In this document: positions 33,503-58,367 of the stretch, one piece after another
Numbering within the stretch: position 1 is the stretch's first letter
How the letters are laid out: every line of letters begins with the position of its first letter
Origin: Macrocystis pyrifera
Taxonomy: Eukaryota > Sar > Phaeophyceae > Laminariales > Laminariaceae
Length of the DNA stretch: 64,000 nt
NCBI GenBank assembly: GCA_031763025.1
Contig: JASSKH010000023.1
Span: forward strand, 6,971,501 to 7,035,500
Direction of reading: 5' to 3'
Position numbers and translations under genes: made by a program
The notes under the pieces: model-generated
What the model was told of the DNA's origin: nothing
The model's database searches: none
What the model saw: only the letters and a program-made list of their open reading frames with translations

Positions 33503-36500
33503 TCAACGCCTAATCTTTCCAAGGGCCAACGCCACCGCTGTCGCCGCCGCCGCCACCGCGGTAACAGCAACAGCCGACGACGCCACCAAAGCCCCCCACC
33601 CCCTCCACCCTTCAAGCACCCCCCGTCGATAATAGGCACCAACCCCATCCCCGTCCTTCCCCTCCCGACCCCCCCCACCGCCTGCAGCGGCAGCATCGGC
33701 CCCGAGCGTGTAGCCCAAGGCCATCGCATAGAGACGGGCGTCGACTTGGAACCCAGATTTGGCGAACGCATCGAGACCGCTCTGCAGCGACTTCGCCGGC
33801 AGCCTCCGAAGGGTGATGAATTCGCTGGATGGTTGGGTTTGCGGAGCGGGGGGGGGGGGGGGGGCGGGCGTACTCATTTGTTGCTTGCCTTAGTCATTTG
33901 ACCATTGACCACGCATCCCTTTCGAGACGGAGCACCGTTCCTACTCCTAATAGAGACACCTCCAACAATTGGGCGCTCATTACGTTGTTTCCATAAATTA
34001 CATAGAAACTTTTTGCTAATCTTATCCCCTTCCTGTTTGGCGGAGCGGGGGGGGGGGGGGGATGGAGGGGTGATGGGGTGCGAGGGGGGGAATTCATCGT
34101 CATGCATAGCCGTAGTCGTATGACCATAAACCCTCGGATCCCTACGATGCCGGGACGGAGCATGGGGGTGAGTAACGGGAGGGTGGATAAGGGGGGGGGG
34201 GGTGTACTCATTATCATGCATGGTCGTAGTCGTATGACCATAAACCCTCCTCGCATCCCTGCAAGGCCGGGACGGAGCACGTCGGGTTTTCACCGACCAG
34301 GCAGACATTGCTTGCACCAAGCGCGAAGCGCCGTGAGGTGTTGGGCGAGTCGCATGAAGGGTGAGCTGCATCCTACTAAGCACCGCTTTAGAGGCGGATT
34401 TACTTGCATATGGATAACAGCATCAATGAATTGATTTAATTTCTGGTGTGGCCACTTCCAGAGACAGCAATGGTTTAACTATGTAACTGCCTCGTGGGTG
34501 CCTCACCATATACACACTACGTGATACGACCATCCCCCTTGTGCGGAGTAAAGGTTCTCCCCGCACAAAAAAATGATCTAACTTGGCCGCCAGCCGTGGG
34601 AACCGCCAAAAAAAACAAAAACAAAAACAAAAACAAAAACGGTACCCTGGCTGTCTAGCTCACGCAGTGAGAGGCGTGTTTTACAGCGTCGTCGCCAACC
34701 GACGCCAACCCAACCTATATATACCAGGTATATAATATAGGGGGGGGGGGGGGGGGGGGGGGGGTAGGAAGGGGTGGGTGAGGGGGTGTACTCGATAGGA
34801 GAGATGTACTCGATCTCATGCATGGCCGTAGCCGAATGACCTGAGGGGGGGGGGGAAGAAGAGCGAAGGGAGGGTGAGAGAGGAAGGCGTGTGGGGAGAC
34901 GGGGTTGGGTGGGCGGGGGGAAGAGGAGGACGGGGGTGGTGTGGCGTGAGGAGGGGGGGGGGGGTGGGTGCTGGGCAACGACCGCAACCACCGGTCAGGG
35001 GCACTGTTGAGTACTTCACATTGTCGGAAACATTCTCCGAACCCCGGGTTACGGACTGAACTCGCGTTGCGGGGACGAAAATATTGAAATTGAGAGCCAG
35101 GATTAAGGTTGTTGTACAGTACAGCGGTGAAAGGGTTAACGTCTCCTCTACAACCACATCCAAGTTTAGGGGGACAGCCTTAGTCTTGCTTGAATTCAGA
35201 ATCGGATAATTCTTGCAGTACTATTAGTTCGAAGGGAAAACTCGTCAGCAGAATGATGCCCGCCGATCGATCGATCTACCCTTTCGACAACGAACAGGCA
35301 AACAACACATTCTACAACTTTGAATACCACCGTGCTAGGACATTAAAATATTGCTATCCTTCCTCGCACCCTTTTCCTCTCCCCCCCTCCCCCCACCCCT
35401 TCCCCCTCCTCCCCCCCCTCGCGCCGCGATCTCCGCTCCCCCCAAAAATAAAGCGCACCCCCTCCCCCCCCCCCTTTCCCCTCCCGCCTTCTAGTCCGCT
35501 CTCCTTCCCAAAAAAGCGGAATCATCTAGAGGACAAGAATGAAGGCACACAACAAAGGGAGAAAACTAGCACAACCACAACCACAACGACAATATACCAG
35601 TACACACAAAATTCACACGAACACACTCCAACACAGACACAACTACCTGGTACAACACAAATACACACACCAACACACAGAATACACACACCAACAAAAA
35701 AAAAAAAAAAAACTGTACACACAAAAAATACACACATACTCCTACAAGCACGTACACTATTAATAGTAGATAGACTCACAAAAAACACCCACAAAATTCA
35801 CACACAAACACACCGAAAAAAACTTCTTTTTTTTTCTCACCCGTCTTCCGGGTTGGCTTTCGCGTTCTGGTTCTCCTCCGAGTCGCCGTTCACCTCGACC
35901 GTAACAAACCTGAAAAACAAGATAAAAACATGGGCGGTTGAAGTTATATCAGCATTCCCGGCGCTTCGCCAGTACCAGTGTACACTGGCAGTATATTTCA
36001 GAGTACGTACACCCGGCACCCAGTACCTCCCAATGTGCACTATGCAGGTATACGTACACGTTCCAGTGCTCCACTATCGCAGCAGTCTAAGCGGTACCAG
36101 GTACCAGGTGCCAGGTATGATTTTGGAGTGCGGGCACTGGTGGTGGAGGAAATGGATGCGTATACAGAAGAAACAAGAAGAGAGGGAGGGGGGGGGGGGG
36201 GGGGGGAGGGAGGGAGGACGGGACACGATGACGACAAAAGGGAGAACAACAACAACAACAGCGGCAACGGCGACGACGACAAAAATAACAACAGCCGAGA
36301 CCTTCCAACCCACTCCCTGTACCCCCCTTTTCCTCCCCCTGCTCATCCACCACCCGATCACTCATCCATCACCCCCCCCCCTTACCCCTCTCGCCTGTAT
36401 TATATACCTGGTATATATATATACGGGTTGGGTTGGCGTCGGTTGGCGACGACGCTGTAAAACACGCCTCTCGCTCTGTGAGCTAGACAGCCAGGGTACC

Positions 36501-38381
36501 GTTTTTTTTGTTCTTGTTTTTTTTTGGCGGTTATCACGGCTGGCGGTCAAGTTAAATCATTTTTTGTGCGCGGAGAACCTTTACTCCGCACAAGGGGGGT
36601 GATCGTATCACGTAGTGTGTACATGGTGAGGCACCCACGAGGCAGTTACATAGTAAACCCATCGCTGTCTCTGGAAGTGGTCACGCCAGAAACTGAATCA
36701 ATTAATTGATGCTGTCATCCATGCGCAAGATAATCCGCCTCTAAAGCGGTTCTTGGTAGGATACAGCTCACCCTTCATGCGACTCGCCCGACACCTCACG
36801 GCGCTTCGTGCTTGGTGCAAGCAATGTCTGCCTGGTCCGTGAAAACCCGACGTCCTCCGTCCCGGCATTGTACGTATGCGAGGGTCTATGGTCATACGAC
36901 TACCGCCATGCATGATAATGAGTACACTCCCACCCCCTCCATCCTTCACACCATCCCTCCCCCTCTCATTGATAACTCACCGCATGTTAGCATCGGTCAT
37001 TCCAGGGTCGCACGGCACAATCGGCGACACGCCCGTCACCCTCCCAGAGAAACCCGTCTCCTCTAGCAACTCCCGTACGGCCGCCGTGGTGGCATCCTCT
37101 CCCGCGTCCACCAGCCCCGCGGGGGATTCCACTACCTGGTAGGGGGGGGGGGAGGGGGCATGAACGACACGCGCAGGGTGTTTTCAGGTGGCGGTTGAGG
37201 GGGGGGGGGGTGTACTCATTATCATGCATGGCCGTAGTCGTGTGACCATAGACCGTCGCATCCCTACAATGCCGGGACGGAGCACGTCGGGTTTTCACCT
37301 ACCAGGCAGACATTGCTTGCACCAAGCGCGAAGCGCCGTGATGTGTTGGGCGAGTCGCATGAAGGGTTAGCTGCATTCTACTATTAATAAGAACCGCTTT
37401 CAAGGCGGATTTTCTTGCACATGGATGACAGCATCAATGCATTGATTTAATTTCTGGTGTGGCCACTTCCAGAGACAGCAATGGGTTCACTATGTAACTG
37501 CCTCGTGGGTTGAGGGGGGGGGGGGTGTACTCGATAGGAGAGATGTACTCGATCTCATGAATGGCCGTAGTCGTATGACCATAGACCCTCGCATCCCTAC
37601 AATGCCGGGACGGGTTGAGGGGGGGGGGGGGGGGGGGGGTACTTATGTCATGCATGGCCGTAGTCGTTTGATCATAGACCCTCCTCGCATCCCTACAATG
37701 CCGGGACGGAGCGCGTCGGGTTTTCACTGACCGGGCAGACATTGCTTGCACCAAGCGCGAAGCGCCGTGATGTGTTGGGCGAGTCACATGAAGGGTGAGT
37801 TGCATCCTACTAAGAATCGCTTCAGAGGTGGATTTTCTTGCACACAAGGGTGACAGCTTCGAACGAATGTATATATTTTTTGGTGTGGCCAGTTCCAGAG
37901 ACAGCAATGGGTTTACTACGTAACTGCCTCGTGGGTGCCTCACCATATACACACTACGTGATACGACCATTCCCCTTGTGCGGAGTAAAGGTTCTCCCCG
38001 CACAAAATGATCCAACTTGACCGCCAGCCGTGGTAACCGCCAAAAAAAAAACAAGAACAGAAACAACGGTACCCTTGTCGTCTAGCTCACGGAGTGAGAG
38101 GCGTGTTTCATGGTTGAGGGGTTGATGTTTCATGGTTGTGTTGAATGTGGTGGTGGTTAGTGTTGGTATTGATGGTTGCGATTGGTGTCGGTGATGCAGC
38201 TGCTGCCGCTGCCAGGCTCCACCCGAGCAGCGAGCGGGGAAACCAGATCAGTGGAGAGACGCACCGATTGGGTTCTTCAGGTACTCCTACCGCGACTCTT
38301 GACGATACTATTGTTGTACTGCTGCTGCTGCTATTGCTGCCTCTGCCGCCGCTGCCGCTGCTGCTAGTCCTGCTGCTACTG

Positions 38382-38414
<33 letters not shown>

Positions 38415-41400
38415 AATTGGTGCCACTACACGCCTGGTATATGGACGGCTCAATTTGTTTTTCAGGCGAACTCAAAGCGCGGCATACCTATCCGTTCCGT
38501 TTCCCGCACCCACCCAGAGTACCTAGTAGTAGTGTACGACTTGGTCCGGAATTGTCAAGGACCGTTTTCCTGCTCACGTGAAGAACCAAACGATCCTTAC
38601 TTTTCCGGACAGAGTGGTGTCCACTATGTAATCATGGCACGTATTATGCAACCATGGCACAGGCAGCAGTAATTGCTGAAGGTAGGTGACCGCCGATACT
38701 TCCCCAAGCCATGCGTAAAACTACTTTCACAGCTTCACCCACGCTGTGGGGACAATTCCTGTAATGCATAATTGAATTTCAGCGCTTTGTGTTTTTTCTG
38801 TAGCAACGCTAGCAATCGGGCTACCAGATATACCAAGGATGTTTCTAGTTTTTAGCCCCCGACTAAGGCTACGATAGGGAGATGGTCACTCCAACCCTTT
38901 TCGGACTGCAGTCTCGTTTAGGGGACAAACCATTCAAACTGTAAGTAGTCTGTCCGCAAAACGGGACTGCAGCCTTAAGGGGAAAAAAGTTCATTTTTTT
39001 TTTTAGCAAATCAGAGCTCAGAGCCACTCCCTACTCCTCCGCCCAGTACGTACATACCCCATTGTTTTGTGGTATTAACCCCCCCCCCTCAAGGACCGCT
39101 GGGATGGCGTAGTTGAGAAAGTATGGAAGGATCTAGGGGGAAACCAAGTAGAGATGATGTCCGCCGGGAAGTTTGGGAGGTACAAGGCAGAAGTAGAAGA
39201 AAGGATAGAAAGAAGGGAAAGGCTAGCGCTAAGAAACAGGGTGGAATCGGAAAAACACTTAGAGATATACGGGGGATTGAGGGAAGGAATAGGAATGAAA
39301 ACGCATTTGCATGGCCCAATGGACTTCGCGAAAACGCTGAAACTGCGCTTTCGTGTAGGGGACCTGGACCTGCCAGAAAGAAGAAAGAGGTAGACCAGTA
39401 GCCGGGAAGAGGAGGAAGTAGACGCACAGATGTGCCCGTGTGGCAAAGCAATAGAGTAGAACTCACATAGTAGGAGAATGTGAAATATACAAGGAGGAAC
39501 GGGATGTGTTAGAAGAGAAGATGAGGAAAGTAGACGAATGTGACATGGAGGAGTTTGATACGATGAATAGCAGCGAGAAAACGATCGATATCCTAGGAGA
39601 TAGATGGTGGCCACAGGATGCCAAACAGGAAGGGGATAAGATTAGCAAAAAGTTTCTATGTAATTTATGGAAACAACGTAATGAGCGCCCAATTGTTGGA
39701 GGTGTCTCTATTAGGAGTAGGAACGGTGCTCCGTCTCGAAAGGGATGCGTGGTCAATGGTCAAATGACTAAGGCAAGCAACAAATGAGTACGCCCCCCCC
39801 CCCCCCCTCCCCTCAAGGACCGCTTCCCGGTTTTGGGGACAGACTGCTCGGAAGTACAGTCAGATTCAACTTTATGTATAGCAGTGCAGTACTATGTTTT
39901 TTATGGTTTCGGGATTTTGCACCGCCACGTTTGTTTTTTTTTGGTCACGCTGCCGTAAAAAAAAACGGTTTATCCAATCCCGAGTGAGGTATAGAGCCGC
40001 TCGCCCGAGTGGCCTAACCGCGGTAGCGCCAATATCGGCATCATACCGCAGCCCCCCCCCCCCCCCCCCTCGATGCTCTCGAAAGGGATGCGTGGTCAAT
40101 GGTCTACTGACTAAGGCAAGCAACCAATAAGTACGCCCCCTCTCCCCCCCCCCCCCCCCCCCCCCGCTTTCCCTCCTGTTGAGAGAACTGCGCAAACAAA
40201 AAACAAATCCGAGCGTCAGAAAAGAGAAATGTCTTTGTTGTTCCCATTACTTCGTGGTTGGTTTCTTTTTTGTACCAGCCACTGGAACTTCAATATCACC
40301 ACACGACACAGAAAAACTCTGATCCTAGCGAACGCCAACAGTCTCGATGGAAACCCTTCCCTCGCGCACCTCGGCTCCCACCGGCGGCCTGTACTGCGAG
40401 ATGAGGAGCACCTCGTCCTCCTTGCGCGAGACGGGGTACCTGACGAACACGACCACCGCCACTCCGTCGCACTCCGACCGACGCGTGGTGCGGAAGGCGC
40501 ACTCCCACTCCCTGCTGTTACCCTTGGGGTCCTGGCAAAAAATGCGGTGTATTTCGAGGCAAAATCGTTTTTGGGTTGATTTAAGAAGAGGATACCTGCG
40601 AATACTATTAATATCAAATCCTGGCTGAAGGATGCAAGAAATTTGAGAGCCGTTATACTCAAGTTAGTGTACTCGTAGACGAATTTCCTGCTGTACTTTT
40701 AGGGAGGTTTCTGTTCGAAGAAACTGAAAGCTTGACAAGCCCAGTCCTACTTGGATGTCTCAAAAGACTGCTGCCCTGCTCTCGATGCTACGAGTACCCC
40801 AGAGGCTACTCACTCCTTCTGTGAGTATGCAGCAGTGCCGAGCTGCTGCTTCATATATACATATGAATAGTGTTCCGTCACACATGAGGCTTTTTGTTGC
40901 TGCTGCTGTGTGGACTATGTACTACTACTGTAGCTTACACGATGACCCTGTTGTCGAGCACCGACTGATGAGTAAATTCGCGCCAAGTTCTCACGCTGCA
41001 GCAACGGCGGACACCCGAGCCCATGATACATCGTAATCCCAGGAGATCTCCGACCCCCGCAGCATGACACTACAGCAGTAATGGTCCCTCTATACCTGCT
41101 AGTAGTGCCGATATGCGCCAGCCAACAACACCGGCAGACACTATAGCGGCAATCGGCACTAATTGCTCCGCACACTGCCATCCTCGGTAATCCCATATGT
41201 GCCAAGGGATTCCACAGCCACCTCCTGATACCTGGTATGTCGTAGCGGGCAGCCGGTACTACTTAACCGGCACTATAGAGGGACCACTACGACTGCATGT
41301 ATTGATCATTAACGGTCATCTGCTGCGCGCTCCGACTTCTACTACTACTGCTGCTGCTGTATGCCTGGTACACTGCTGTACAAGTAGACGGTTGACAAAA

Positions 41401-43115: not shown

Positions 43116-43515
43116 CGTACAAGGATTAAGATTTGATCGGTTTCAAGTACAAAGTTCTCGTTCCACACATAGGCTCCTGTGTCCGTCGCACGCTGCTTGT
43201 GCGAGTATCTCTGCGTATCTACCCCGGTAAAGGCCTGCGCGTCTCGATCTGTCCAGGGGGCGCGTTTCCGACTTCGGATGATGAGGCCAGTTCGCATGTA
43301 CCAGAGAAAGTTTGTGCATGCGAACGCCTCGAGAACCAATCCACTACAAACCCTTCTTCAAAATTTGAACGTGGTTCATATAAAGTTGGGTGGCGTTTAT
43401 CGTTATAGAACACGATGCGGGGGAGTGCGGAGTTGGAGTGCTGGCCTGCCTGTGCAGCGTGGTGCGCGGCTACCAAACACATCTGTCTGCCTCGCCAGCA
43501 GCTTCTCCCTATTAG
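43116..43515. promoter_or_regulatory. Shared divergent promoter region
   Basis: The 400 bp between the start codons of the Nudix gene (minus) and the amidase gene (plus) must hold both promoters and 5' UTRs unless undetected upstream exons exist. A TATAAA occurs at 43379-43384, 137 bp before the amidase ATG. No mobile element is recognised in this stretch, in contrast to the flanking introns. Confidence 0.5.
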
Positions 43516-46500
43516 ATGGCGACCCCTCGGCTCGTCACCGTAGCGGCCACGCAGCGATCGTGCTCGTCCAGTTCCAGCGAGAACGTAGACGCTGCTGAGG
43601 TTCTTATTCGGGCGGCCGCGGCGGCGGGAGCGCAGGTGATCTTGCTGCAAGAGTTATTCGCGACGCAGTACTTCTGCCAGGAGCAGCGCCAGGAGCACTT
43701 TCTCCTCGCCGAGAGCGAAAGCGACAGCCCCCTGCTGAAACGGTTCCAGGCACTCGCGAAGGAGCTGGAAGTGGTGAGTCACTGGCACAATAATTTGACA
43801 GGCTGTTGCTGTTTCTGCTGCTGTTCCTGCTCTTGCTGCCGTTGCTCTGCTGTTCCTGCTGCTGCTGCTGCATTCATGATGCATACCCGTACGTATTACA
43901 GCGCGCTTCGCCCGCCCGGTCTCTCGCTCGCAAGGAATAGAACAAACTGCGCGTGAAGCGGATAGAGTGGTCCATCATTGCAGATGCAAACTGACGACTT
44001 GCAAATGCCAATAGCTCCTACGGGTACGAAAAATTACGGGCAATCGGCTTCTTGTTAAGCACGGCTGTTACGGCAAAAGCCGGGGATAGCAAATAACCAT
44101 CCCCGGGTTCCCAATGTATCCATGATGAACTCTTAAAACTATACGACACAATAATTGCACAACAAAAAAAGGCGTGCACGCTTTTGGGACCAGGGACTGC
44201 AATCCTGTTTTGGGGACAAACTACTTGTATTTGACTGTACTGTCCCGAAACATGACAGCAGTTCTAAAAGGGTTAACTATTAATATCTGTTACATCAATC
44301 TTCATGTGAGCACGATGGTCATGTATCTGATCAGGTATATTAACACCGGGTACACACGTGGCCAATCGGCTACCCCCAAGCACCCTCTGGACGGCAATAC
44401 ATCTTTCCCTCTGGAAGGTGCCCAGAATTAGGGGACAGCATCGCGTGGTAAAAATCGGACACACCACACCGATGCGCAGAGTGGTCGGCCGCGCACGCTC
44501 GGGTCGCCGACGTCATAGTAGGAACCCTATGGAGGGTATGGAATCGTTTCCTCTTGAGGGTGACCGAAATTTCGCGGCCCGATCGTGTGGTGAAACATGA
44601 CCCGCCACACCGACGTCCAGATTGTTCGGGCGCGCACCCTGTGGAGGCTGACGACATCCCCCAAAACTCTCTGGGGGGTAAAGAACTGTACCCGCTAGAG
44701 GGTGCACAAAAAAGGCCGACCCTCGTAATGCAGTCAGAAGAGCACCCACCATATGTATACCGATACCCAGTGAGTTTGAACGGTGAACCGCCACAGGACG
44801 CAGACAGTAAGACGCGCCTCCTATATGTACACATGCGGGAAAAGTAAACATTATTGCTTTAATTTGTCTCTACTACAGTACACGTTTGCACAACTGACCC
44901 TCTGGGGACATTTTCCTACACACGATGTTCTATTTCTGCCACGCCTTTAGAGCCTTTACTGCGTCATATAGACACCCCTTGCGAGCATATAATGTAGAAC
45001 TGTTATAATAGTACAGCGGTACGCCGTGGTGGCCGCCTCCCCCATCGCTTGCGCCTCTTTCTCTCTTCTTTAGTTTTGGAACCCCGCTCGATAAATCTAC
45101 CGGTATGTGCGTGTGCTTCGAGGAAGCCTTTGCCTCTCGTTGAATAGTTCTGCTATTGCGGTGGGACCATAGTAAATAGGACCAAATATTGCCAGTAAGA
45201 ATTGGTAAATATATAGGTTTTTATGCATACCATAGGTCCTATAAACTGTGGTCCCCCGTAATACTGCTGTGCGCCACAACGAGGCAACAACACAACAACT
45301 TCCCACATGTCGCGGTTGACCGAGCATCATCTGTCATTAAGATATTATCCACCGACATGTCTTTGGCTTTCGGCCAACGAAGGTTAGCAATACAGGCCGC
45401 AGCTAGACACACAGACGAGGATATTAAAATTCACAGCGTCAACTATTAATAGCCAAAATAAAGAAATGAAGACGGTCTCTGATCAGTCGAACAGAGGAGG
45501 GGGGATCACATTGGCAACCTGTGTCAGCCAAACATACAGTTTGAACGACACACCCTGCGGGCACTGTAACTGAACACAGATGGCACAGTCACTACGCATT
45601 ACAACAGCAACGTCTTCTTTGGCATTGGGCTCCGGGTAATCGGTGGTTGTGTCGTCACCCGAATCCACGTCCTCAGCGTGGTTTGCCAGATCGTATACTC
45701 GGACCACGAAAAAAATCACCGATTAAGCGGAGCCCGATGTCGGAAAAAGACAGGGATGATTTTGGCCGGCGCAGCAAGCCGACCAACGACGAGTACGACA
45801 GTTCCTCCGATGCCCAGTCGACTGGCCCCCACCTTGACTTCACCGACCTCGTTTTTTTCTTGTAGTCTACCTCTCTACCAATTCGTTCGACGCTGCATCC
45901 AATCAGTGCAAGAAGGTCCGCCTCACAAGCTGTTCTTAGTAGGCTCGCCCACCCTTCATGCGACTCGCCCAACAACTCACGGCGCTTCGCGCTTGGTGCA
46001 AGCAGTGTCTGCCTTGTCTGTGGAAACCCGGCGTACTCCGTCCCGGCATTGTAGGCTCGTGAGGGTGCTATGTTCATACGACTATGGCCACGCATGACAT
46101 GAGTATACCCACCTACGACTACGTGGCGGAACGTGTGTCCAAACCGCGCATAAAGAGCACTGAATTGCCTGCATTTCGGACGTCCTCATTGTTTACGAGC
46201 TCGGCATCGGACTCGTCACGGTCGATCATGGTGACCTCGTCGTCGTCTGGTCGGGAGACACCCGAGCCGCCCACGACCTCAGAGTGGGACTCACCGCACG
46301 TGCTGGTGGCTTCGCGAAGTACACAAGAAGACCTCACTCGGAACCAAGAAATATATGCGCTTTCCCTTCCTCCGCCCCCCCCCCTGATGACTGGCAGAGT
46401 TTATGCCCAACTGAGTTGACTATTTTTTGTGCTCTTTTTGGACACGTCCCGCCGAATAACAGTCCGCAGGGAGGCAGAGTTGTTTTGAGAAAAAAATAGG

Positions 46501-49500
46501 TCGGGGAAAGCCTAAATATAAAGATCATTTTTATCTGATACCATATAAATATATACAGCACAGGCAAGGTACAGGAGATTTGTGTCCACAGGTAATTTTT
46601 AATTATTTATTTCCCGAACTCGGGGAGAACAAATCAAGGGGAGACCAAGTGGGGAAAATCGTCGTACTCGCCGGTGTTTGGCGTTCTGTCGACCGAGTCA
46701 TCCGTGTCTTCGATATCGGGCTCCGCGTATTCGGTTATCGTCCCTGCGTCCGAATCCGAATCCACGTCCTCAGCGTCTCTACGTGAACTTCCGTAGCGCC
46801 CCTACTCGCGACGAGCAGGACCGGAAGGCTCTTGGGTAGTAGATATCGGACTCCGCATGTTAGGTTATTACCTCTGCGTCTTGATCCACGCCCTCATTTT
46901 CCGTACGTGAATTTCCGTATCGCCCCTACTCGCGATGATTAGCAGGACCCGAAGTCTCTTGGGCATTACCAAGAGCCTTCCGGTCCTGCTTGCCGCGAGT
47001 ACGGGTGTTACGGAAGTTGACGTGCAGACGCTGAGCACGTGGATCCAGACGCAGAGGTGACAACAGAACACGCGGAGTCCGATGTCGAAGAATGAATGGA
47101 TGACTTGGCCGACAGTACGCCGAACAACGACGAGTACGACCATTCCTCCGTCACCCAACCGACTGGGGCTGCCCTTGGCTACGTCGATGCATGTTTTCTT
47201 CTACTCTTACTCCGTTCACCTCCGTTCGTACGAGTTCTCGGCCCTTGACTTCGTCGACACATGTTTTTCTTGTACTCTTACCTCCATTCGTACGAATACT
47301 CGGCGTAGCGCGTAGGTAGGGTGAATGGAAAATATAGGTCAGCGAAGTCAAGGGGAGGCCCAGCCGGCTGGGTGTTGAAGGAATCCTCGTAGGATGTTGA
47401 TGTTCATATTGATATCGATACTTAAACTTTGATACTCACACTGATGCTGCCATTGACATGAATGCTAATGATACTGACATTGGCATTGATTTTGACATTT
47501 GATGTCGACGTTGAAATTGGTGTTGATACTGATACTGATGTTCATACTGACACCGATATTGAAATAGACAATACATCGATATTAAAATTGTTTTTGATAC
47601 TGATACTGATATCAGTACTGATACCGACATTGATACTGACAATACATCGGTATTGAAATTGATTTTGGTTCTGATATTCATACTGACACCGATATTGATA
47701 TTGACAATACATCGATATTGAAATTCTATTGATACTGATACTGATATTCATACTGACACCGATATCGATGTTGACAATACATCGATATTGAAATTTCTAT
47801 TGATACTGATCCTGATATTGATACTGTCACCGATATTGATATTGACCATACATCGATATTGAAATTTGCTGTTGATACTGATACTGATAGTTATGCTGAC
47901 ACCGATATTGATATTGACATTGCATCGATATTGAAATTGCTATGGATACTGATACTGACATTCATAATGACACCAATAATGATATTGACTGTACATCGAT
48001 ATTGAAATTGATATTGGTATTGATAATAGTACTGACATTGATATTGATATTTTGACCATATAGGTACTGCCGGTGAGCTTCTTCGAGCGCGCCAACAACG
48101 CCTTCTTCAACTCCGTCGTGGTTTTCGATGCGGACGGAAGCCGTTTGGGGCTCTACCGCAAAAGTCACATACCGGACGGACCGGGCTACCAGGTGCGGAG
48201 CGTGTATGGTTGCGCCGCGTGGGGCCGCGGAAGAGACATTGACGATAAGCCGTTTTCGGTTTTCGGTTTTCAAAGTGTAATACGTACCCGTATTTTTTGC
48301 AAGCAAAAAACTATCTGCATATGTCTTTGTGCCCGTCTGCGGCGTGCCTTAACCCCTCACGGGAATTCAGACGCAAGTGTAAACGACCCAAAACAATTGG
48401 CGATGAAAAAAAAAATCCGCTTCAAAACCACTCTAGTAGACAGACATGTAACAGGCTTTGAGATATAAAAAATGATCGAAGTATCACATTAGACTCAGCT
48501 TGCAAATATGAGCTTGGACAAAATCCTCGATGTGACAGGGGTGTGTGTGTGTGTTTTTTTTTTCATATACCAGGTATATAACATGAAGACAATACGGTCC
48601 TTTTTTTTCTTTTTTCTGTCTAGAGTGGTTTACACTGGTCCACGAAGCAGCCCGGCCTTTTTTGCTGGAGTATAAAGGGGAGTTGTAAAGGTTAGTGTCT
48701 TAAGTATGTACACAACGCGAGGGGTTTTCGTGACTAAGCTCGCGGCGTGACATACTTGACACTGCTGCACGGTTGCATTTGGCGGTTACGGGGGGCGATA
48801 GTAGCCAGAACCCCCGGTGGCCCCGCCCAAAACCGTGCACTGTGTTGTATCCCCCCTATGCTCACACGCCGTATTTGGTTTCGATCACAACAGCATGCTC
48901 CCCCGTAGTATTTCGAAAAAAAAAAAACGACAAAAAAAACAGCTAGCTGTGAGATCGACAATTTCGTCGAAACTCATCATCTTTGCAAGCTGTGTGTCAT
49001 ACTAATACGGGGGTCCATAGTTAATAGGACCTATGGTATACATAAAAACCTATATATTTACGTACCTATTTTTACTAACAATATTTGGTCCTATTCACTA
49101 TGGTCCCCCGTAATAGTGATACTAGTGATTCTAGTGATACTACAGTAGTGATACTAGTGATACTAGTGATACCTGTGATAATAGTGATATTAGTGATACT
49201 AGTGATACTAGTGATTCTAGTGACACTAGTGATACTAGTGATTCTAGTGATACTAGTGATACTATACTAGTGATCATAGTGATACTAGTGATACTAGTGA
49301 TTCTAGTGATACTATACTAGTGATACTATACTAGTGATAATAGTGATAATAGTGATACTAGTGATACTAGTGATTCTAGTGATACAAGTGATACAAGTGA
49401 TACTAGTGATACTTCAATCGCGCGTACTACGGGTTTCAAATGGCCTAATAATATGTGTATTGCAAGACGGTTCGTGAGATCGTGCTTTCTCGTTCAGTTG

Positions 49501-52500
49501 GTCCCTGTATTGCTCTGAGAGTCCCGACGCAGCTTGCAAAGGTGAGTGTCGAGCACTAAATCGGTCGTACTTTTGGCTGACGTATTTGTAAGTTTTTTTT
49601 GTTTTGGAAAGGGTTGAAAGGCGAGGTCTGGTGTTGCGCCGCGTGCGGCCGGAGAAAAGAGGGGCCGACGACCGAGGAGGATACACCTTGTTTTGTTTTT
49701 TTGGTTGCGTACATCCCTTTTGGTAGTGACATGAGAAAGGAACTATTCAAGAATTTTTCCTCGAGTGCTTTGTCCTTTCGCTTTGTACTGGAAGAAACGA
49801 CTCAGCTCAAGTTTTCAAGTGATTTGTCCTATCACTTGCGTACTGGAAGGAACGATTCAACTCTTCTCCTGCAGTTTGTTCAGTTGCTGCTCGAAAAGTA
49901 GACTGTCCTTCGGCTACTGAAGGAAACGGTTCGATTATTTTTCCAAATTTGTCCTTTTGGCTCTGGAACAGACGACATCGCTATAATTCCAGGTATGTAG
50001 TGTGTCCTTGTTCTGCTTGAAGAAACTACCCCACTCTATTCCTGTAGTTTGTCATTTAGCTGCTGGAAAAGTAGTCTGTCCTTTGGCTACTGGAAGAAGC
50101 GATTCAACTCGTTTTCCAATATGGCGCCCTTTTGCTACTGGAGCACACGATCCAGCTCTATTTCCAAGTTGTTCGTCCTTGTCCTGCTGGAAGAAAGGAT
50201 CCAACTCCATTCCAATTGTGTGTTGTTTTGCTGCTCGGAAAGTAGATTGTCCTTTAGCTACCGAAAAAGACGATTCGACTATTTTTCAAGTAGTTTGTCC
50301 TCTGGCTACTGGAAATAAACGACCCAGCTCTAATTCCAGGTGGTGCGCCTTTTTTTTTTACTGGAAGAAACGATCCAACTCTACTCCTCGTAGTTGGTAT
50401 TGTTGCTACTCCAAAAGTTGTTTGGCCTGCGGTTACATTTCGTCGTCGCTTCAACTCGTACCAGGTATACAGTTTGGGAGTAACGAGGCCTCCTGCTGCG
50501 ATCAGTTCGAGACTCCCACCCAGGGCTACTGCCCCCGTGTTTGATTCGACCGAAATCAACGCGGTACCTCGTCGCAGAAAGTAGTTGCTCCTGTAGAATA
50601 GACACTACAAGCAAACAAACAGAAACCGATGTCTTTTGTCGGCGTATCTGGCGCACATCGATGGGTTGGCGGGATGGCCTGTTTCCCCTGACCGTTACCT
50701 ACTTCGTCGTGCTGTCGCAGACCGCTGGGGGAGCAATTGCCTTTCGTTTTCCCCCACTTTGCTTCCGGCAGGCTTTCTCCCTATCCGGGGATGCTATCGA
50801 TGCATCCCCGGATTTTTTTTTCGAAAGTTTCAGCAGTAGCATTTCGTCGTCGCTTTTGCACTATTGATAGTATCTAGTTTGGGAGTGATGAAGCCTCTCT
50901 GCTGCGGCATGAGATCACTCACACCCATCCTTGTTGTCCCTTTTCTCTTCCCTCAATGCCGCAGTTTATGTTTATCGTATTTCCCTTCCGGTGGGTTTCC
51001 CTGTGTCCTTTTTCTACCTAGACGAGTATCTTGGCCTCTACTGGGTTCGGCTGCGGTTGGCCCTCCTTTTCCGAGTAGCTTTTGTCACTTTTGCTACTGG
51101 AACAAATCATGTACCGGTAGTTCTTATTCCAAGCAGTGTGTGCTTGTCCTGCTGGAAGAAACGAGCCAACACTTATCATTTCGAAGTTTTGTCATTTTGG
51201 TATTGCTCGGAAAGGATTTTGTCCTTTGGCTACCGGAAGAAACGATTCCACTCTTGTTCCGAGTAGTTTGTCCTTCCGCTACTGGAAAACAACGATATCC
51301 CTCTAATTCCAAGTGGTGTGTCCTCGTCCTACTATTACGGGGGACCATAATAAATAGGACCAAACATTGTTAGTAAAAATAGGGAAATATATAGGTTTTT
51401 GTATGTACCGTAGGTCCTATTAACTATGGCCCCCGGTAATAGAAAAAATCAGGGCTTTTCACGGGTCAGGTCAAATCTCACCGGTCGGGTCGGGTCGGGT
51501 CAGCTGACCCGACCCGACCCGCGAGATTTTGAAAGCCTCTTGACCCGACCCGACCCGACCCGCGAGATTTAAAAAGTTCTTGACCCGACCCGACCCGACC
51601 CGTGAGATTTGAAAATATCCTGACCCGACCCGACCCGACCCGCGAGATTTAAAAACCTCCTGACCCGACCCGACCCGACCCGCCACCTTTGGATTGACCC
51701 GTGCTTTTGGTAAAAGAGCGGGAAGTGTTTTGAGTGTCGGATCCGCGGGCCGGATGCGCGGGTCCGACCCGCGGGTCAGCAAAAAAGAACTCGCGGGTCA
51801 CGCTGGTCCGACCCGCGAGTGAACCGTTTCTCGCGGGTCATGACCTGTGACCCGATCCATGAGCTTTTCATCATCTCTTGACCCGACCCGACCCGACCCG
51901 TGATATTTGAAAAACTGTTGACCCGACCCGACCCGACCCGTAAGATTAGAAAACCTCTTGACCCGACCCGACCCGTGAGATTTTGAACACTTCTTGACCC
52001 GACCCGACCCGACCCGTTACATTTTGAACACCCCGTGACCCGACCCGCGGATCGGGTCATGACCCGCGAAAAGCCCTGGAAAAAACGATCCAACTGCATT
52101 CCAAGTAGTATATCCTTGTCTTCTTGAAGGGAATATGCAATTTTTTTCCAAGTGGTTTGTCTTTTTTCCACGGGAAGAATTACTTCATTGTTTTTCCCCA
52201 GTAGTTTGTCTCTTTGTTACCGGAACAAACTATATCGCTCGAATTGCAAGTAGTCTGTTCTTGTTTGTCCCTTCGTTACCGGAACAAACGATGTCGCTCT
52301 AATTCCAAGTAGTCTGTCCTGTCCGACTGGAAGAAACGATCCAAGTCTAGGCCATGTACTGTAGTTTGTCCTTTTACATATGGACTCGAAAAATACATTA
52401 GCTTGTCCTTGTCCTACTGGAAGAAACGATTCAACCCTACAGTAATTCCAAGTAGTTTGTCCCCAAATTTCAGGCACAGTTTGCCTACCCGTAACTGTCA

Positions 52501-55500
52501 TGTCCCTTGTACCGACAAGCCTACTCATATGCAGGAGTCCCCTTCGTAGAGTTTGAACGCTTCTCGAAGAGCGCCACCTGTCCACTCCCTCGTGGGAGCT
52601 TGTCTACAACCCGCGGGGTCTTGTTTTCCCTCGCGAGGCTTCTGTGATTTCCCCCACGGGTCGTTGTGTCCCCCCTGGGTGGACACCTCGTCGAGATCGC
52701 GAGGATGCGAGGTCTCCCCTCTCTTCTTCCTCTTGTCTCCTTTGTATTGTCTTGTCTGGTGAGAACGCCGCACGGCGTTCACCCCCATTTTTGTGCTGTG
52801 TTTTCACGTGAAAGCCTTGCCGCTTCCCGCCAAGGCCGTACCGCTCGTAGCACTCCCACAGCACAACGGTAGGCGAAAAACAGTCAAAATTGTTTCCTAT
52901 TTTTGCTTCGTAAGGCTCGCGGCTTGTTGTAATGTCAATGTTGAGCACATAGGCTATGAACCGTTTTAGAACTGCACTCCCGTTTTGGGAACAAACCGGC
53001 GAACCACTAAAATTATTAGTAATCTATCCCCTGAACGGGACTGCGGTCCTAGTAGGCATACAGGCTCTTGAAAGCTGTTGTACAGTATTTAAACTGGCGT
53101 TCTTTGCCGAGCACAAATTATGACTAAAGTCGTAGACGTAAATTTACAAATTTGAGACAAGTTCTCGGCATCAAGTTCTTCTAACCCTGAATTTTTTCAA
53201 GCGCATGTCGTGTACTGTACGAGAGCAATCCCCTCTATAGCGATCCCCTCTATTATTAGGCGTGTGCTCTACAATAAGGCATGCGTCATAGATATAGCAT
53301 GTTTTGGCCGAAATGTTGCTGACTTGCCTTGCAGCACATTTTTGCGGAACTATTTGTCGCTGGGACGGAGTTCCTAATTGCCACTGGGACGGGGCTCCTT
53401 GACTGATGAGAAGTACCCGGCAGCATCCCATTTGTGTGTTTCGCACAACCAAAATTATGTTGCACCTAAGGTTATGGAATGGTTTCATCGGGTATAAAAC
53501 CTCTTTTTTTTCGTCTAAAGTCAGTTTTGGGTGACGCACGGAGCTATAGCTCCCTCCTCAAAAGTTAGGAGCCCCAGAAAAATCCCAGAAGAAAATGGTG
53601 CTTCGTATCCCTATCGTTGAACCCTTCTTTTTTTTTATACAACATACTCGTATATGTATACTTCGTATACATTTTTTTTCTTTCTTCCCGTTTATTGTCT
53701 CGGGCCTTATTTTATCTCTCCCTGCTAGCCGTAACTCAGGTGCGGGTTCAGAAAGTAGGCTCTCTCTCTTTCCCCCCCCCCCCCCACCACGGTTCGTCCC
53801 TTCATTTCGACCGCGAGAAGACTTAAGCCTTTTCGTCTTCCCGAAATCAGAAAAGTTAATATTACAGGGGACCATAGTAAATAGGACCTACGGTACACAC
53901 AAAAAACCTAAATATTTACGTGTTTTTACTAACAATATTTGGTCCTATTTACTATGGTCCCCCGTAATCGTTACCAAGTACATACTATCAATATGATCAT
54001 TCACACCACAGTCACACAGGCAATATATTGTTCCCTCTCGTCGACTCGCGTCGAATTTATTAGTATGAAATTGTTACGAAGTATTAACGCAGAGGGTGGG
54101 CGATGCTACTGCGCGGGTAGTCAAATAGTAGCCACAGTGTGGACGGAAATGTAAAGACCGTTTAAATACATGTATACGGTACTTGGAAGTATGAAGACCA
54201 ATCGGTCCTTATTACATTTTCCGTCCAGAAGGGTTTTAATATGACGTTTTTTTTTTTACCTGTTGCGTACCAGGTATGCACGTGCAGTATAATGAACACC
54301 CGTGATTTCCGTCCGCTTGTTTGTTTTGGCGTTTTGTTTGTGGGTGTTGGTTTGAAATCCGACCGTTGCATGTAACAAATGTGTCGCGGCGGTTACGTGT
54401 TTATGGGGTTTATTTCCCATGTACTACGTTGAACGGAAATGTAAGGACCGTTTGGTATCCATGTTAGTGTTGAAACGATTCTTATATTTCCGTCGAGACG
54501 GGTTGAGGTTTTAGGGTTCTTGACGTCTAATGCGCAGCATGTGTGTATTTTTTTTTCCTACCGCGTAATTCATGTACAAGGTATACCAGTGGGTGCTACT
54601 CGAAACCAGGCCCTGATGCTGCCCGACCTACGGTCTCCCGAACGCTGGCACGCTGGCCCGTATGGCCGTGTATACGTGTAAATAGTTCGATCGAAGGTGT
54701 CATAAATAATGTTTTGTGTGTGTTGTGTGTTCCTTCACATTTGTACGTACACGCCATTTCTACCCACCACCATCCAAAGCATATTTCATTCTCCGCGCTG
54801 ATTGGTCATCCTGCTGTAGAGAGATGCCAGCTCTGTCGTCACAAACTCCGGACACGGTAAAGATCATCCATGGCACTTGATTGAAGGTGGCTTCCACCGT
54901 CCGCACGTACTACTTGTCCTACACGTCTCGGACAAATCACGGGCCCCGTCTTTGGACTACGGTCCCGTTGTGGGGACGAAACAGTTAGAGTTTTACTGTT
55001 TTTTTCCCCGAAACGAGACCGCCTTCGTGAAAGGGTTAGTGATCCGAATGTTTGTGGGTGAAGTATGCAGTTGTGATATGCACGATCTATGATTTATATA
55101 GGAACGGCATCTACGCTATTTTTTGTCAGAAGGCAAGCGTGATAATAATAATGATATAGCTCATTTTTCCATGATGTAGCTCATTTTTCCACCGGGTGGA
55201 AGCCGTCCAATCGGCGTGGTCTAGTGGTACGCAGCACCATGTTGCCCGTGGGTTGGATATGCATGTATTTCTTATTTACAGATGGTGCACACCGACTCAC
55301 AACGGCAAGTACAGCAGCAGTAGGTCAGGAGCTACACGCAGTAGATGCTTTCGTAGATCGTGATCGTCCGATGTGTGTACGTACGTACTATTCATATTTG
55401 TTTTCTTTTCGCCCTCCAGACTCATTAGAAAAAGAAAAACTGGGAGAAAAAAAACAAAAAAATGGGAAAAAAAAAAAAAAATCCGAGATGGAAAGTTTCC

Positions 55501-56055
55501 TCAAAACTCCTAGTTGCAAGCTTGCAATACTTCTATTGAGATCAAACCGTGCTACGGAGTGTCTACGAGTTGGTTCTAGAGTGGTCTGAAAAAACTTTTT
55601 ACTGTACGTCGTCACTATGTCGCAACACGCCGCGCAGGAAAAATTCTACTTTAGCCCGGGAGACACGGGCTTCAAGGTTTTCGATTCCCGTTACGGAAAA
55701 ATCGGAGTGGCCATCTGCTGGGACCAGTGGTTCCCAGAGGCCGCTCGGGCGATGGCCTTACAAGGAGCGGAGGTGAGGGTTTTTGACGACGACAATGAGG
55801 ATTGTTGTTGATGTTTGTTTTGTGCTTGTTGTGTGGCTGTTATTGCTGTAGAAACTACCCGTACGTTTTGTGATTGTCTTCGCTGCTGTGGTTTGTTGTT
55901 GTGCTTGCCATCCGACGACAATGTGCGGCAGGAACGTTCGATATCGTTCACCCATTGATGATACGTGAACGTTCGCCGAAAGAAGAGGAAAATCGAGGTA
56001 ACCCCAAAAAGGAAACCCGTGTACCGATGTAACCCATGTATATCTATATATGTTA

Positions 56056-56086
<31 letters not shown>

Positions 56087-58367
56087 CATAGCCCAAGTCC
56101 TACTGCAATTCCTTTCGTGTTTCGCGTTTGCGCAGATCCTGTTCTACCCCACCGCCATCGGGTCGGAGCCTCAGGACCCCACCCTCAACTCCAGCGCGCA
56201 CTGGAGGAGAGTCATGCAGGGACACGCTGCGGTGGGTTTGAGGATGTATTTATGTTTGCAGCACGTCTGACACGTGTTTTTTTTTTGTCGTGGTTGAACA
56301 ACTTTCGGTCGTCGGACCGGCTGCCATCCTCCGGTGTATGTGCCCAGAGTCCTTCCGTCTTTGTCGTGACCATGGACCAGATTGTGCTGCGACAGGGGTA
56401 TACGATTATTAGTAGGGCTGGGCACTGACACGGCATGTACTGGCAGTAGTGATACACTGATTGACGCAGCCAGTACAGTCGCCAGTAGTTTTATCTTACG
56501 TACGCCCCCAAGAAACACGCCGTATTATAGTACGGAAACCCACTGTTAATAGATACGTTTCGGGAGCAGAGAGCAGAGACAGTATACTGCTGCAATCCAG
56601 TGTACTGATTGATTTTGACGACATTTCACTGAGTCAGCCAGTGCCCAGCCCTAACTAATGCCAGGTACCGTACCTGGTAGCATATTTTGGCCAAGACATC
56701 TCTGACGGGGGTTCCCTCGCTGACGAGCTACCCAATATCATCGTTGATCCCTTTTTCGTTTTTTCCCGTGTAATGATTCGAAACTATCTACAGTACGAGA
56801 GGCCGAGCTTAAGGTGTCCTTTTTTTTATTCAAAATCAAAATCAGATTTTGGGGGACGCACAAGTATTACAAAGTAGGAATAGAGCTCCACAAGTTGAAG
56901 GGGGCTCAGATTGCTACCCACGCCGTAGCACGTTTACTCGTATAAATAGGGCATTGAACTAGGGTGAGGTCAACGTCAACATGACGTACAGGGGAATTGA
57001 TGGACGAAGTAACACACACAGCTTGCAAAATATGGGTTTTGCAGGAATTTTTCGATTCTCGCGATGCTAAGAGAGGTCTTGGTAGCCTTTGTGAATACAG
57101 TAGTTGGTACGTACATACAGTCAGTAAACCTACGAACAAGCGTCAGTCCCGTGCGAAGACGTTTACTGAAAAAAAAGCCAGGCTGGGAATTGCCTGACGA
57201 TACCATGGTGATGCAGTTACACTGAAGATGTTGTAGATTTTTCACCTAATCAGAAATCCAGCCGGCTTGGGCCGGCACTCAGTCCTGTTTCTGGGTGTCC
57301 TGTGTTCTGTGATAGTTGCCGTGAAAATCCCTGAACTTTGAGCGTTACACACCGTTGTCTTGATTTTTTTTTTTTTAACGTATTGCACAACCCCCCCCCC
57401 CCCCCCCCCCCCCCCCACCCCCTATAGTATATACCTGGTATATATATAGGTTGGGTTGGTGTCGGATGGCGACGACGCTGTAAAACACGCCTCTCACTGC
57501 GTGAGCTAGACAGCCAGGGTACCGTTTTTTTTTTTTTTTTTTTTTTGCTGTTACCACGGCTGGCGTTCAAGTTAGATCCTTTTTGTGCGGGTGGAGAACC
57601 TTAAATCCTCACAAGGGGAGTGCTCGTGTCACGTCGTGTGTATATGGTGAGGCACCCACGAGGCAATTACATAGTAAACCCATTGCGGTCTCTGGAAGTG
57701 GCCACACCAGAAATTAAATCAATTCATTGATGCTGTCATCCATATGCAAGAAAATCCGCCTTTAAAGCGGTTCTTAGTAGGATGCAGCTCACCCTTCATG
57801 CGACTCGCCCAACACCTCACGGCGCTTCGCGCTTGGTGCAAACAATGTCTGCCTGGTCGGTGAAAACCCGACGCGCTCCATCCCGGCATTGCAGGGATGC
57901 GAGGGTCTATGGTCATACGACTACGACCATGCATGATAATGAGTACACCCCCCCCCCCCCCCCCTCATCCTCCCCCTGCAAACGTTCCCGCAAACCCTTT
58001 TTTGCTTCCCATGATGAAGGCGAACTTGGTCCCCGTGGTCGCCTCGAACCGCATTGGCCGTGAGGAATTTTCCGGCACCCACATAACTTTCTACGGTAGC
58101 TCCTTCATCGCAGACCAAACCGGGGAAATTGTTTCGCGGTGCGCCTTCGTTCCGAGCCTCGGCCACGAGGACGGTGGGGCAGGGACGGGACCGGCGGCGG
58201 CGGTTGGTGTGTCCGAGGGGGCGAAGAGGGGTGACGGCGAGTTTACCATGCACACGTTCGACCTCGAAAGCATCCGACTGCAACGGGCCGAGTGGGGTTT
58301 GTTTCGAGACCGACGGCCACCTCTCTACCGACCGCTCTTGTCGTTGGATGGGCGATCGACCGCATGA
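43516..58367 (+). CDS. N-carbamoylputrescine amidase (nitrilase superfamily)
   Basis: Exons 43516-43773, 48064-48192, 55638-55772, 56136-56231, 58020-58367 join in phase 0 at every junction to give 321 residues. The enzyme converts N-carbamoylputrescine to putrescine, CO2 and ammonia, the last step of the agmatine route to polyamines. The nitrilase catalytic triad is intact: Glu46 in ILLQELFATQYFCQ, Lys119 in LYRKSHIPDGPGYQ, Cys156 in GVAICWDQWFPEAARAM. Other family signatures are EKFYFSPGDTGFKVF, ILFYPTAIGSEPQD, HWRRVMQGHAAAN, VPVVASNRIG, ITFYGSSFI and WGLFRDRRPPLY. Length fits plant CPA (about 300) apart from a roughly 30-residue Gly/Ala-rich insert between GEIVSR and TFDLESIR. No targeting peptide is obvious, so it is probably cytosolic. 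Introns are 4.3, 7.4, 0.4 and 1.8 kb and repeat-filled. Confidence 0.95.
43940..44020 (+). repeat. ~80 bp repeat shared with 41.65 kb
   Basis: Second copy of the repeat at 41640-41735, same strand. Confidence 0.5.
44181..44277. mobile_element. MITE-B copy
   Basis: GGGACTGCAATCCTGTTTTG and CAGCAGTTCTAAAAGGGTTA arms; diverged. Confidence 0.6.
44383..44725 (+). repeat. Three-unit ~140 bp coding-like tandem repeat
   Basis: Units start near 44383, 44526 and 44661 and each can be read as a PLDGNTSFPLEGAQ / PMEGMESFPLEGDR / LGGKELYPLEGAQ peptide, though in different frames. Origin unknown. Confidence 0.5.
45154..45263. mobile_element. MITE-A copy
   Basis: TATTGCGGTGGGACCATAGT and ATAAACTGTGGTCCCCCGTA ends, intron 1 of the amidase gene. 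Confidence 0.75.
45590..47190. repeat. Inverted relics of an element with acidic C-tail
   Basis: Minus 46780-46635 reads DVDSDSDAGTITEYAEPDIE ... GEYDDFPHLVSP and stop; related sequence lies on plus at 47000-47180 and on minus at 45600-45690 (DVDSGDDTTTDYPEPN). The motif TTAATTATTTAT with CCGA-TTCGGGGAG beyond the stop recurs at 60450-60480, so it is a dispersed family. Family not identified; it looks broken. Confidence 0.35.
45893..46115 (+). mobile_element. SINE-like 3' fragment without clear poly(C)
   Basis: Matches the family from GTCCGCCTCACAAGC through ACGACTATGGCCACGCATGA and ATGAGTATACCC; more diverged than the others and lacking the long C tail, so probably an older copy. Intron 1 of the amidase gene. 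Confidence 0.6.
47395..48060. repeat. GATATT/GATACT hexamer array with ~75 bp higher-order unit
   Basis: Units close with GACAATACATCGATATTGAA, seen about six times (47566, 47637, 47702, 47772 and on), interspersed with GATACTGATACTGATATTCA. It ends at the acceptor of amidase exon 2 (48063). Confidence 0.8.
49003..49115. mobile_element. MITE-A copy abutting a 9-bp satellite
   Basis: TAATACGGGGGTCCATAGTT and TTCACTATGGTCCCCCGTAA ends; the ACTAGTGAT array starts right after it. Confidence 0.75.
49116..49415. repeat. 9-bp satellite GATACTAGT
   Basis: About 33 units of GTGATACTA with GATTCTAGT and GATAATAGT variants; each contains the palindrome ACTAGT. Confidence 0.85.
49740..51330. repeat. 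~50 bp TTTGTCC minisatellite, left block
   Basis: Units of the form TTTGTCCTTTTGCTACTGGA, AGAAACGATTCAACTCTATT, CCAAGTAG. Interrupted at 50540-51060 by unrelated sequence and at the right by MITE-A. In intron 2 of the amidase gene. Confidence 0.75.
51333..51442. mobile_element. MITE-A copy inside a minisatellite
   Basis: TATTACGGGGGACCATAATA and TTAACTATGGCCCCCGGTAA ends; it interrupts the ~50 bp TTTGTCC minisatellite just before the GACCC array. Confidence 0.75.
51465..52075. repeat. (GACCC)n array with 40-bp units and a palindromic start
   Basis: Units are TGACCCGACCCGACCCGACC then CGCGAGATTTAAAAAGTTCT. At 51486-51521 the array opens with a perfect palindrome: GGGTC repeats, CAGCTG, GACCC repeats. 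Orientation is constant afterwards. Confidence 0.8.
52080..52470. repeat. ~50 bp TTTGTCC minisatellite, right block
   Basis: Same units as 49.74-51.33 kb (AAACGATCCAACTGCATTCC, AGTAGTTTGTCTCTTTGTTA), so the GACCC array and MITE-A lie inside one minisatellite. Confidence 0.7.
52960..53053. mobile_element. MITE-B copy
   Basis: CGTTTTAGAACTGCACTCCC and GAACGGGACTGCGGTCCTAG arms. Confidence 0.65.
53860..53969. mobile_element. MITE-A copy
   Basis: TATTACAGGGGACCATAGTA and TTTACTATGGTCCCCCGTAA ends. Confidence 0.75.
54947..55040. mobile_element. MITE-B copy
   Basis: GGACTACGGTCCCGTTGTGG and CGAAACGAGACCGCCTTCGT arms. Confidence 0.6.
55090..55160 (+). mobile_element. Retroposon 3' end with short (TAA)n tail
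   Basis: ATTTATATAGGAACGGCATC, GTCAGAAGGCAAGCGTGATA then AATAATAATG; 5'-truncated copy in intron 2 of the amidase gene. Confidence 0.6.
56412..56653. mobile_element. MITE-C copy (shortest, cleanest ends)
   Basis: TAGGGCTGGGCACTGACACG and GTCAGCCAGTGCCCAGCCCT are near-perfect inverted ends around ~240 bp. It lies in intron 4 of the amidase gene. Confidence 0.75.
57423..57964 (+). mobile_element. poly(C)-tailed SINE-like element, copy F (near full length)
   Basis: Complete layout: TATACCTGGTATATATAGG start, T-run, body, ATGATAATGAGTACAC, C-run tail. A long C-run (57391-57416) stands just before the 5' end as well. It lies in intron 4 of the amidase gene, sense, and its tail ends about 55 bp before the acceptor at 58019. 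Confidence 0.75.

Follow-up and report, generated by a model that had tools for sequence, protein, structure and literature searches.

Dong, Kibi and Koshi are microsatellite-specific non-LTR retrotransposons. L1 and Alu carry a homopolymer tail, a poly(A)/T tail made by polyadenylation, which is believed to anneal to a homopolymer primer where the DNA is nicked. Further microsatellite-specific elements are Togen, whose named repeat is (TG)n, and some HERO elements (PMC4640811). For the RTE clade of Lepidoptera, an endonuclease and a reverse transcriptase, no RNase H, a very short 3' UTR, many 3' partial copies and a simple repeat directly after the stop codon have been described (PMC2887409). 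RTE/Bov-B and Sauria SINEs are a LINE/SINE pair with the insertion signature Tn-TA (PMC13295347). In Ectocarpus, where LINEs are common in introns, RTE-X LINEs occur together with RTEX-N1_Ec32, an abundant non-autonomous element of about 600 bp that has its 3' end in common with autonomous LINEs and a 5' part described as of unknown origin (PMC12477816).

We analysed a window of 64,000 nucleotides from Macrocystis pyrifera (contig JASSKH010000023.1, positions 6,971,501 to 7,035,500). The window holds two families: a LINE with an EEP endonuclease and a reverse transcriptase, and a non-autonomous partner of about 530 bp. Both terminate in ATGAGTAC(A/G) followed by poly(C), and the 3' end that they have in common extends over about 52 nt (local score 42; largest score in 500 shuffles 22). 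When one mismatch is allowed, the short end motif by itself is found 16 times in the window (shuffles: mean 5.8, largest 13). With at most two mismatches, the 537-Mb genome contains 10,614 LINE 3' ends (5284 and 5330 by strand) and 13,260 partner 3' ends (6613 and 6647 by strand); the reversed-pattern controls gave 0 and 11 matches. Genome size, CTG tracts and genes rich in introns are in keeping with a brown alga.

The protein domains of the LINE were read from one copy (L079, L001) of about 4.1 kb, which is broken by frameshifts. Two of its fragments match endonuclease families, PF14529 (4e-5) and PF03372 (3.6e-4), both under the Pfam cut-off. The reverse transcriptase matches RVT_1 above the cut-off (4.4e-12), with a second fragment below it (0.0015), and the C-terminal part has no Pfam match. 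No RNase H domain was found in seven fragments of this broken copy, each scanned separately. The ORF ends in SNK-TGA inside ATGAGTACGC, followed by C(n). Because the ORF stops only within ten bases of the tail, the 3' UTR is almost absent. We call the LINE RTE-like, a clade assignment that follows from its architecture and the Ectocarpus paper and not from a tree.

For the partner, we looked for a Pol III-type head and found no tRNA in the window and no Rfam match. An internal T22 tract on its sense strand (57525-57546) is odd for a Pol III transcript and speaks against Pol III. Hence we dropped the default label of a Pol III SINE and use the name non-autonomous partner. One partner subfamily has a duplicated end, GATCGAGTACATCTCTCCTATCGAGTACACC, and is found at 16626-16724, 34805-34841 and 37544-37613 of the window and in the copies L002 and L024. 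Elsewhere in the genome, eleven partner copies with similar composite tails lie mostly about 11 kb apart (C125:1487554-1610872, L025-L035). This is a tandem array that carries a partner element.

How does this pair compare to the described systems? Like L1 and Alu it has a homopolymer tail, but the tail is poly(C)/G instead of poly(A)/T. The Dong and Kibi types may serve as analogies to the RTE-like LINE. As they are described, Togen, HERO, Dong, Kibi and Koshi also insert into simple repeats and choose their target by the repeat, but they belong to other clades and in part use a restriction-like endonuclease; the description of Togen names (TG)n, not poly(C), and mentions no exon-edge bias (PMC4640811). 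With the Lepidoptera RTE clade the LINE of the window shares the endonuclease and reverse transcriptase, the very short 3' UTR, the simple repeat after the stop codon and the many 3' partial copies, and no RNase H was found in its seven fragments either. In that clade, however, the tail repeats are of several kinds, and in the one empty/filled pair described the duplicated site is not a microsatellite (PMC2887409), whereas tail and target of the LINE and partner in the window are the same homopolymer. With RTE/Bov-B and Sauria SINEs our families share the LINE/SINE pairing and a first duplicated base that accords with the tail, but the T stretch about 10 nt upstream that is reported there (PMC13295347) is absent. 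In the 50 bp ahead of 92 solo copies, profiled from the element start and not from mapped duplications, T stays at 0.15-0.22 and C rises to 0.62; the Tn-TA signature is reported for some RTEs and does not define the clade. Ectocarpus, described for RTE-X and RTEX-N1, is probably a host of like kind, and there too an abundant partner shares its 3' end with a LINE. In this comparison by description only, the parts of that paper on these elements mention neither poly(C) tails nor C-runs as targets, and say nothing of nearby splice sites (PMC12477816). The target of the LINE/partner pair is a simple repeat that matches the tail, as in other microsatellite-specific elements. Thus it is a case of microsatellite-targeted non-LTR retrotransposition, here with a homopolymer poly(C) tail identical to the target. 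Among the matches listed in the open PMC literature, no paper describes a poly(C)-targeted LINE.

The copies of the window, of which those named in the earlier note were found where it had put them, illustrate the pattern. A 5'-truncated LINE on the plus strand (39100-39795) is 94% identical to L001 over 700 bp, and its C-terminal ORF stops at the TGA in ATGAGTAC. It is preceded by the target-site duplication CCCCTCAAGGACCGC (39085-39099, plus strand), which is continuous with a C10 run from 39079, and the downstream copy of this 15-bp duplication (39809-39823, plus strand) lies beyond the poly(C) tail. This is the clearest duplication that we found and reads C10-TCAAGGACCGC, LINE, C15-T-CCCC-TCAAGGACCGC. 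Three other 5'-truncated LINEs lie at 33866-34041 (minus strand, sense to a NUDIX gene and 100% identical to part of LINE 39100-39795), 14675-14744 (minus strand, with the duplication CCTCCTCA) and 40077-40138 (plus strand, between C18 and C22). The LINE stretches 33866-34041 and 39620-39795, 100% identical over 176 bp, stand about 6 kb apart in opposite orientation in one inferred gene.

Near-complete partners have poly(C) beyond both ends, as previously noted: the copy at 57422-57950 (plus strand) has C26 ahead and C17 behind, and the copy at 34200-34740 (minus strand) has C-runs of 25 (34740-34764) and 12 (34191-34202). A third near-complete partner lies at 36395-36927 (plus strand), antisense to the NUDIX gene, with its tail towards the donor of an exon that ends near 36977. 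The 5'-truncated partners at 14480-14566 and 16626-16724 (both minus strand) have C-runs on both sides, the one at 34086-34161 (minus strand) lies between C-runs, and a short partner fragment (15248-15284, plus strand) is flanked by C29 and C17. Another 5'-truncated partner occupies 15423-15831 (plus strand). Three partners form a tail-to-head array on the minus strand (37208-38108: 37208-37510, 37544-37613 and 37635-38108), with tails that end in C(n)TCAACC; CCCCTCAACC (38112-38121) stands ahead of the first of them. The exception is a partner at 45879-46110 (plus strand), with no C-run ahead and no clear poly(C) tail.

C-run targeting by the LINE/partner pair is strongly supported by the flanks of the copies. 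In the 30 bp before the element, at least six consecutive C occur in 83 of 127 non-redundant copies and at least six G in none (0/127), compared to 3.8% of random 30-mers of the same loci. At least four C occur in 108 of the 127. The run precedes the element in 59 of 92 solo copies, which have no other family tail upstream, and all 15 solo full-length partners have at least five C before them. Copies truncated at the 5' end also have a preceding C-run (27/48 partners and 18/29 LINEs). Since solo and 5'-truncated copies behave alike, the C-run is not part of the element. For these flank counts 25 of 152 copies were removed. Near copies (L005, L007, L008, L015, L026-L035) were dropped from flank and exon counts, and L059-L062, the same places as L022, L023, L036 and L038, were left out of both; the target duplication count (109 copies) and the 3'-tail count (152 copies) precede the removal of redundant rows.

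The choice of strand is equally consistent. Of 630 partner 5' cores on the reverse strand of the whole genome, 319 have C8 at a distance of 10-40 nt ahead and 1 has G8, counted once per partner core among the matches listed; we use the reverse count because the forward count (1633) takes every shift of a C-run. A single partner with G8 just upstream (C191:8123730-8123771) is the sole exception to the strand choice in the whole-genome pattern search. The window contains 54 C- or G-runs of at least 8. For 24 of these a family copy is no more than 40 bp away, and each time the letter of the run matches the strand of the copy, C by plus and G by minus; two of the 24 also touch a secondary match of 24-30 nt on the opposite strand. 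Of the 127 copies, 35 have another family tail on their own strand no more than 60 bp upstream, and one has such a tail on the opposite strand. Element tails are hence reused as insertion targets.

Among the copies of a MITE-like family that served as controls, a C- or G-run of at least six occurs on either side in 2 of 17. This family has 17 places in the window (for example 10030-10142, 30693-30803 and 51331-51442) and has ends that read close to CTATTACGGGGGACCATAGTAAATAGGACC. Two further repeats of the window are a tandem repeat of about 40 bp built on GACCCGACCCGACCCGCGAGATTT (51505-52065) and a degenerate tandem array of a 5-base unit with 23 overlapping copies spaced 10 or 15 (3674-4076). 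Against C-run targeting stand 44 of the 127 copies, about a third, that lack six or more C in the 30 bp before the element, and 28 of 152 that lack four or more C within 25 nt past the aligned 3' end. Decay is a likely cause of both.

A search of 109 solo copies for target duplications gave 9 (1.6 on average and at most 7 in shuffled pairs), and 7 of the 9 duplicated words start with CC or more. That few copies show duplications speaks against our explanation. A high-copy repeat offers a view of the target before insertion. It includes the window stretch 8700-8900 and has 977 exact copies of a 21-base core in the genome; 40 scored copies are 97-100% identical over 201 bp. The same repeat (7000-9525) holds CTG tracts, a C23 run and an ORF that reads CYNCRLTDSTIKDGD and has no Pfam match. 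Its C-run is whole (C22-23) in six copies that were read, the window copy (8760-8782, plus strand; L095) and five others. In the copy L052 a LINE sits inside this C-run with TCTT at both junctions, and three more copies have an ACAC-type tail in the same run, of which only the tails were seen. Thus 4 of 977 copies have a family tail in the run, compared to a random expectation of about 0.7 for 23,874 ends. The prediction that empty sites hold C-runs is supported by these six copies, at paralogous and not orthologous sites. Insertion into C-runs, as the earlier note proposed, is borne out by the 5' flanks, the target duplications, the tail-to-head arrays and the empty repeat sites.

The most probable explanation, which we hold with considerable confidence, is that the RTE-like LINE and its partner insert at C-runs, with their sense strand on the C strand, probably by annealing. 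In this scheme the LINE protein would bind the 3' end of about 52 nt that LINE and partner have in common, and so would mobilise the partner as well. The endonuclease would nick the G strand. The exposed ...GGGG-3' end would then pair with the poly(C) at the 3' end of the RNA and prime cDNA synthesis. Target-primed reverse transcription, with the G-run at the nick paired to the RNA poly(C), is the simplest reading. Repair would leave duplications that adjoin the C-run or start inside it. Tail-to-head arrays follow because insertions leave new C-runs. Long runs are not required, since CCCCTCAACC, which we take for the site of the array before insertion, contains no more than four C; the array tails (37199-38108) measure C12, C12 and C21. 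This suggests, for one locus and with run lengths that change by slippage, that the RNA carries the tail along and that as few as four bases can be enough.

Alternatively, the endonuclease itself recognises C/G-rich strands, so that the tail merely mirrors the target and the annealing of RNA and DNA does not select the site. The 5' flanks (83 of 127) fit this too, and RTE endonucleases have been proposed to read the stretch upstream of the nick (PMC13295347). Against it, tail and target agree in both base and strand, and the array tails exceed the C4 of CCCCTCAACC, which fits a tail carried on the RNA. Recognition by the endonuclease alone is a possibility that we take seriously but would not bet on. 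An endonuclease preference for G-rich strands could still do part of the work.

Do the insertions gather at exon edges? In the window, four tail/acceptor pairs can be read from the sequence, all four in sense as had been claimed. On the plus strand, the tail C-run of the partner at 15423-15831 ends at 15836, 70 nt before the inferred acceptor AG at 15905-15906, and that of the partner at 57422-57950 ends at 57964, 55 nt before the acceptor AG of an N-carbamoylputrescine amidase exon (58018-58019). On the minus strand, the 17-nt tail of LINE 33866-34041 (33848-33864, G on the plus strand) ends at 33848, 22 nt before the acceptor 33825-33826, and the tail of the partner array (37199-37210) ends at 37199, 62 nt before the NUDIX acceptor 37136-37137. 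All but the acceptor at 15906 have homology support: the joined exons of the NUDIX gene, on the minus strand, match PF00293 (7.5e-12), and those of the plus-strand amidase match 5h8k (6.2e-41), with CN_hydrolase (7.2e-7) across the junction at 58019. The acceptor at 15906 has only a coding score of 9.6, and the joined peptide has no Pfam match. Three copies had also been placed beside donors. Two of them, at 36945 and 14470, do face a donor, the former that of an exon ending near 36977, but in each case the gene next to the copy runs on the other strand. The third, the fragment at 15248-15284, has a sense donor upstream of it.

For a wider view, we scored exon-like edges 5-115 nt past the tail of sampled copies with a splice-aware score. 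The underlying codon model was trained on 15 kinase-exon loci and the exons of the window and separates coding from other stop-free 90-nt stretches with an AUC of 0.956. Sample A was inspected while the score was built, sample B was fresh, and random sites were drawn from the window and the sample A loci. Sample A lost 1 of 59 tails and sample B lost 5 of 40 because their sequence was too short, and 93 tails were scored. L052 was excluded, because its downstream exon-like stretch sits in the repeat. The splice-aware score replaced a first coding-window test (13/42 clusters near the tail, 2/35 on the 5' side; discordant pairs 10 vs 2, p 0.039), because random sites scored 73/369 in that test.

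Either kind of exon-like edge follows the tail in 41 of 93 copies, compared to 19.9% of random sites. At a score above 5, a sense acceptor with exon follows 28 of 93 tails (13.5% of random sites; rank test 2.0e-8) and an antisense exon with its donor in range follows 29 of 93 (12.0%; 1.4e-11). Antisense copies that face donors are thus about as frequent as sense copies that face acceptors, and the claim of insertion in sense only does not hold. In sample B (n=35) the rank tests give 1.8e-4 for acceptors and 1.4e-4 for donors, but the fixed cut-off above 8 gives a weak signal (acceptors 6/35, p 0.052; donors 5/35, p 0.073). Antisense donors show no excess at a score above 12 (5/93 vs 3.5%, p 0.24). 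On the 5' side, 6 of 28 clusters have an exon-like edge. In the kinase loci, which were chosen for exons, the score exceeds 8 in 20/30 on the 3' side vs 12/30 on the 5' side. Six of 22 candidate exon peptides have Pfam matches below 1e-4. Exons with Pfam support past sense tails are VPS11 at 18 nt (L041), COPA/B at 84 nt (L003), sulfatase at 12 nt (L042), a TRAF zinc finger at 20 nt, below its Pfam cut-off (L069), and CLPTM1 at 71 nt (L118). IGPD, also supported by Pfam, has its antisense donor 31 nt past the tail (L108). Hence the tail tends to face an exon, whichever strand carries the gene. The score may be inflated by C-rich sequence, which has fewer stops; the C-run control suggests that this effect is small.

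That control consists of copy-free C-runs of at least seven. Of 66 such runs, 16 have an edge above 8 on the 3' side and 8 have one on the 5' side, compared to 12.1% of random sites; family copies, with 27 of 93, show no clear excess over these runs. By rank, copy-free runs have an excess at donors (p 0.018) and, in this small control, none at acceptors (p 0.45), and the 28 copy-free runs of the window alone show no bias. The proposal that C-runs are intron polypyrimidine tracts thus holds for a part of them only, as the majority of the copy-free runs examined lie away from splice sites. Of the 22 tails followed by a sense acceptor that scores above 8, six come within 30 nt of the AG, among them L108, for which an antisense donor is the better reading. 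Without L108 and with the window copy at 33848, there are six cases in which no other long pyrimidine tract is closer to the acceptor than the tail. The remaining C-runs and copies lie elsewhere. Gathering at exon edges, as the earlier note expected, is real but partial and indirect. It follows from C-runs that tend to face exons, from either strand.

A different account holds that insertion is only loosely C-rich and that selection keeps those copies whose C-run, sense or antisense, is harmless at an intron end. The 5' side points in this direction, since an edge above 8 is found there in only 1 of 28 clusters, below the 12.1% of random sites. Copies behind family tails and in the run of the high-copy repeat, however, show a choice of C-runs that host exon edges do not explain, and we regard selection as an unlikely main cause. 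Guidance in which a splicing factor or chromatin leads the element to splice sites or exon edges themselves, with C-runs only incidental, would account for the 41 of 93 edges and the Pfam-supported exons 12-84 nt past sense tails. Yet copy-free C-runs are similarly biased, insertions also occur in the repeat's C-run and behind the tails of other copies, and donors ahead of antisense copies are as common as acceptors ahead of sense copies. We rejected splice-site recognition as the primary rule on the copy-free control and think guidance of this kind very improbable. Because copy-free C-runs show a similar, weaker edge bias, splice-site recognition need not be invoked: passive targeting of exon-facing C-runs is enough, on a small control whose acceptor part has no rank excess. 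That insertion makes the C-runs, with poly(C) carried at each end of the element or with bases added at the 5' junction without a template, as in the 5' homopolymers described for some L1 insertions (PMC2837659), is scarcely credible and was rejected, because empty repeat copies already hold the run (C22-23), 5' C-runs precede copies truncated at many points, and at 39079-39099 the run stands both before and inside the duplicated word.

This would be a homopolymer-targeted LINE/partner pair that has 23,874 counted 3' ends in one genome and a built-in feedback, as the tail becomes a target. More speculatively, the pair might be a self-seeding homopolymer parasite: its poly(C) could anneal to any short run on the G strand, the fresh C-runs could be the next targets, and tails that now work as polypyrimidine tracts could allow a life at exon edges without breaking genes. 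In the high-copy repeat, nature provides a before/after test of how targets are chosen. The polarity of tails that face exons ties the choice of targets by a retrotransposon to intron ends and to the evolution of splice sites, in a way that can be tested. It also comes with a warning: a C-run at the end of an intron in such a genome may be the tail of a transposon.
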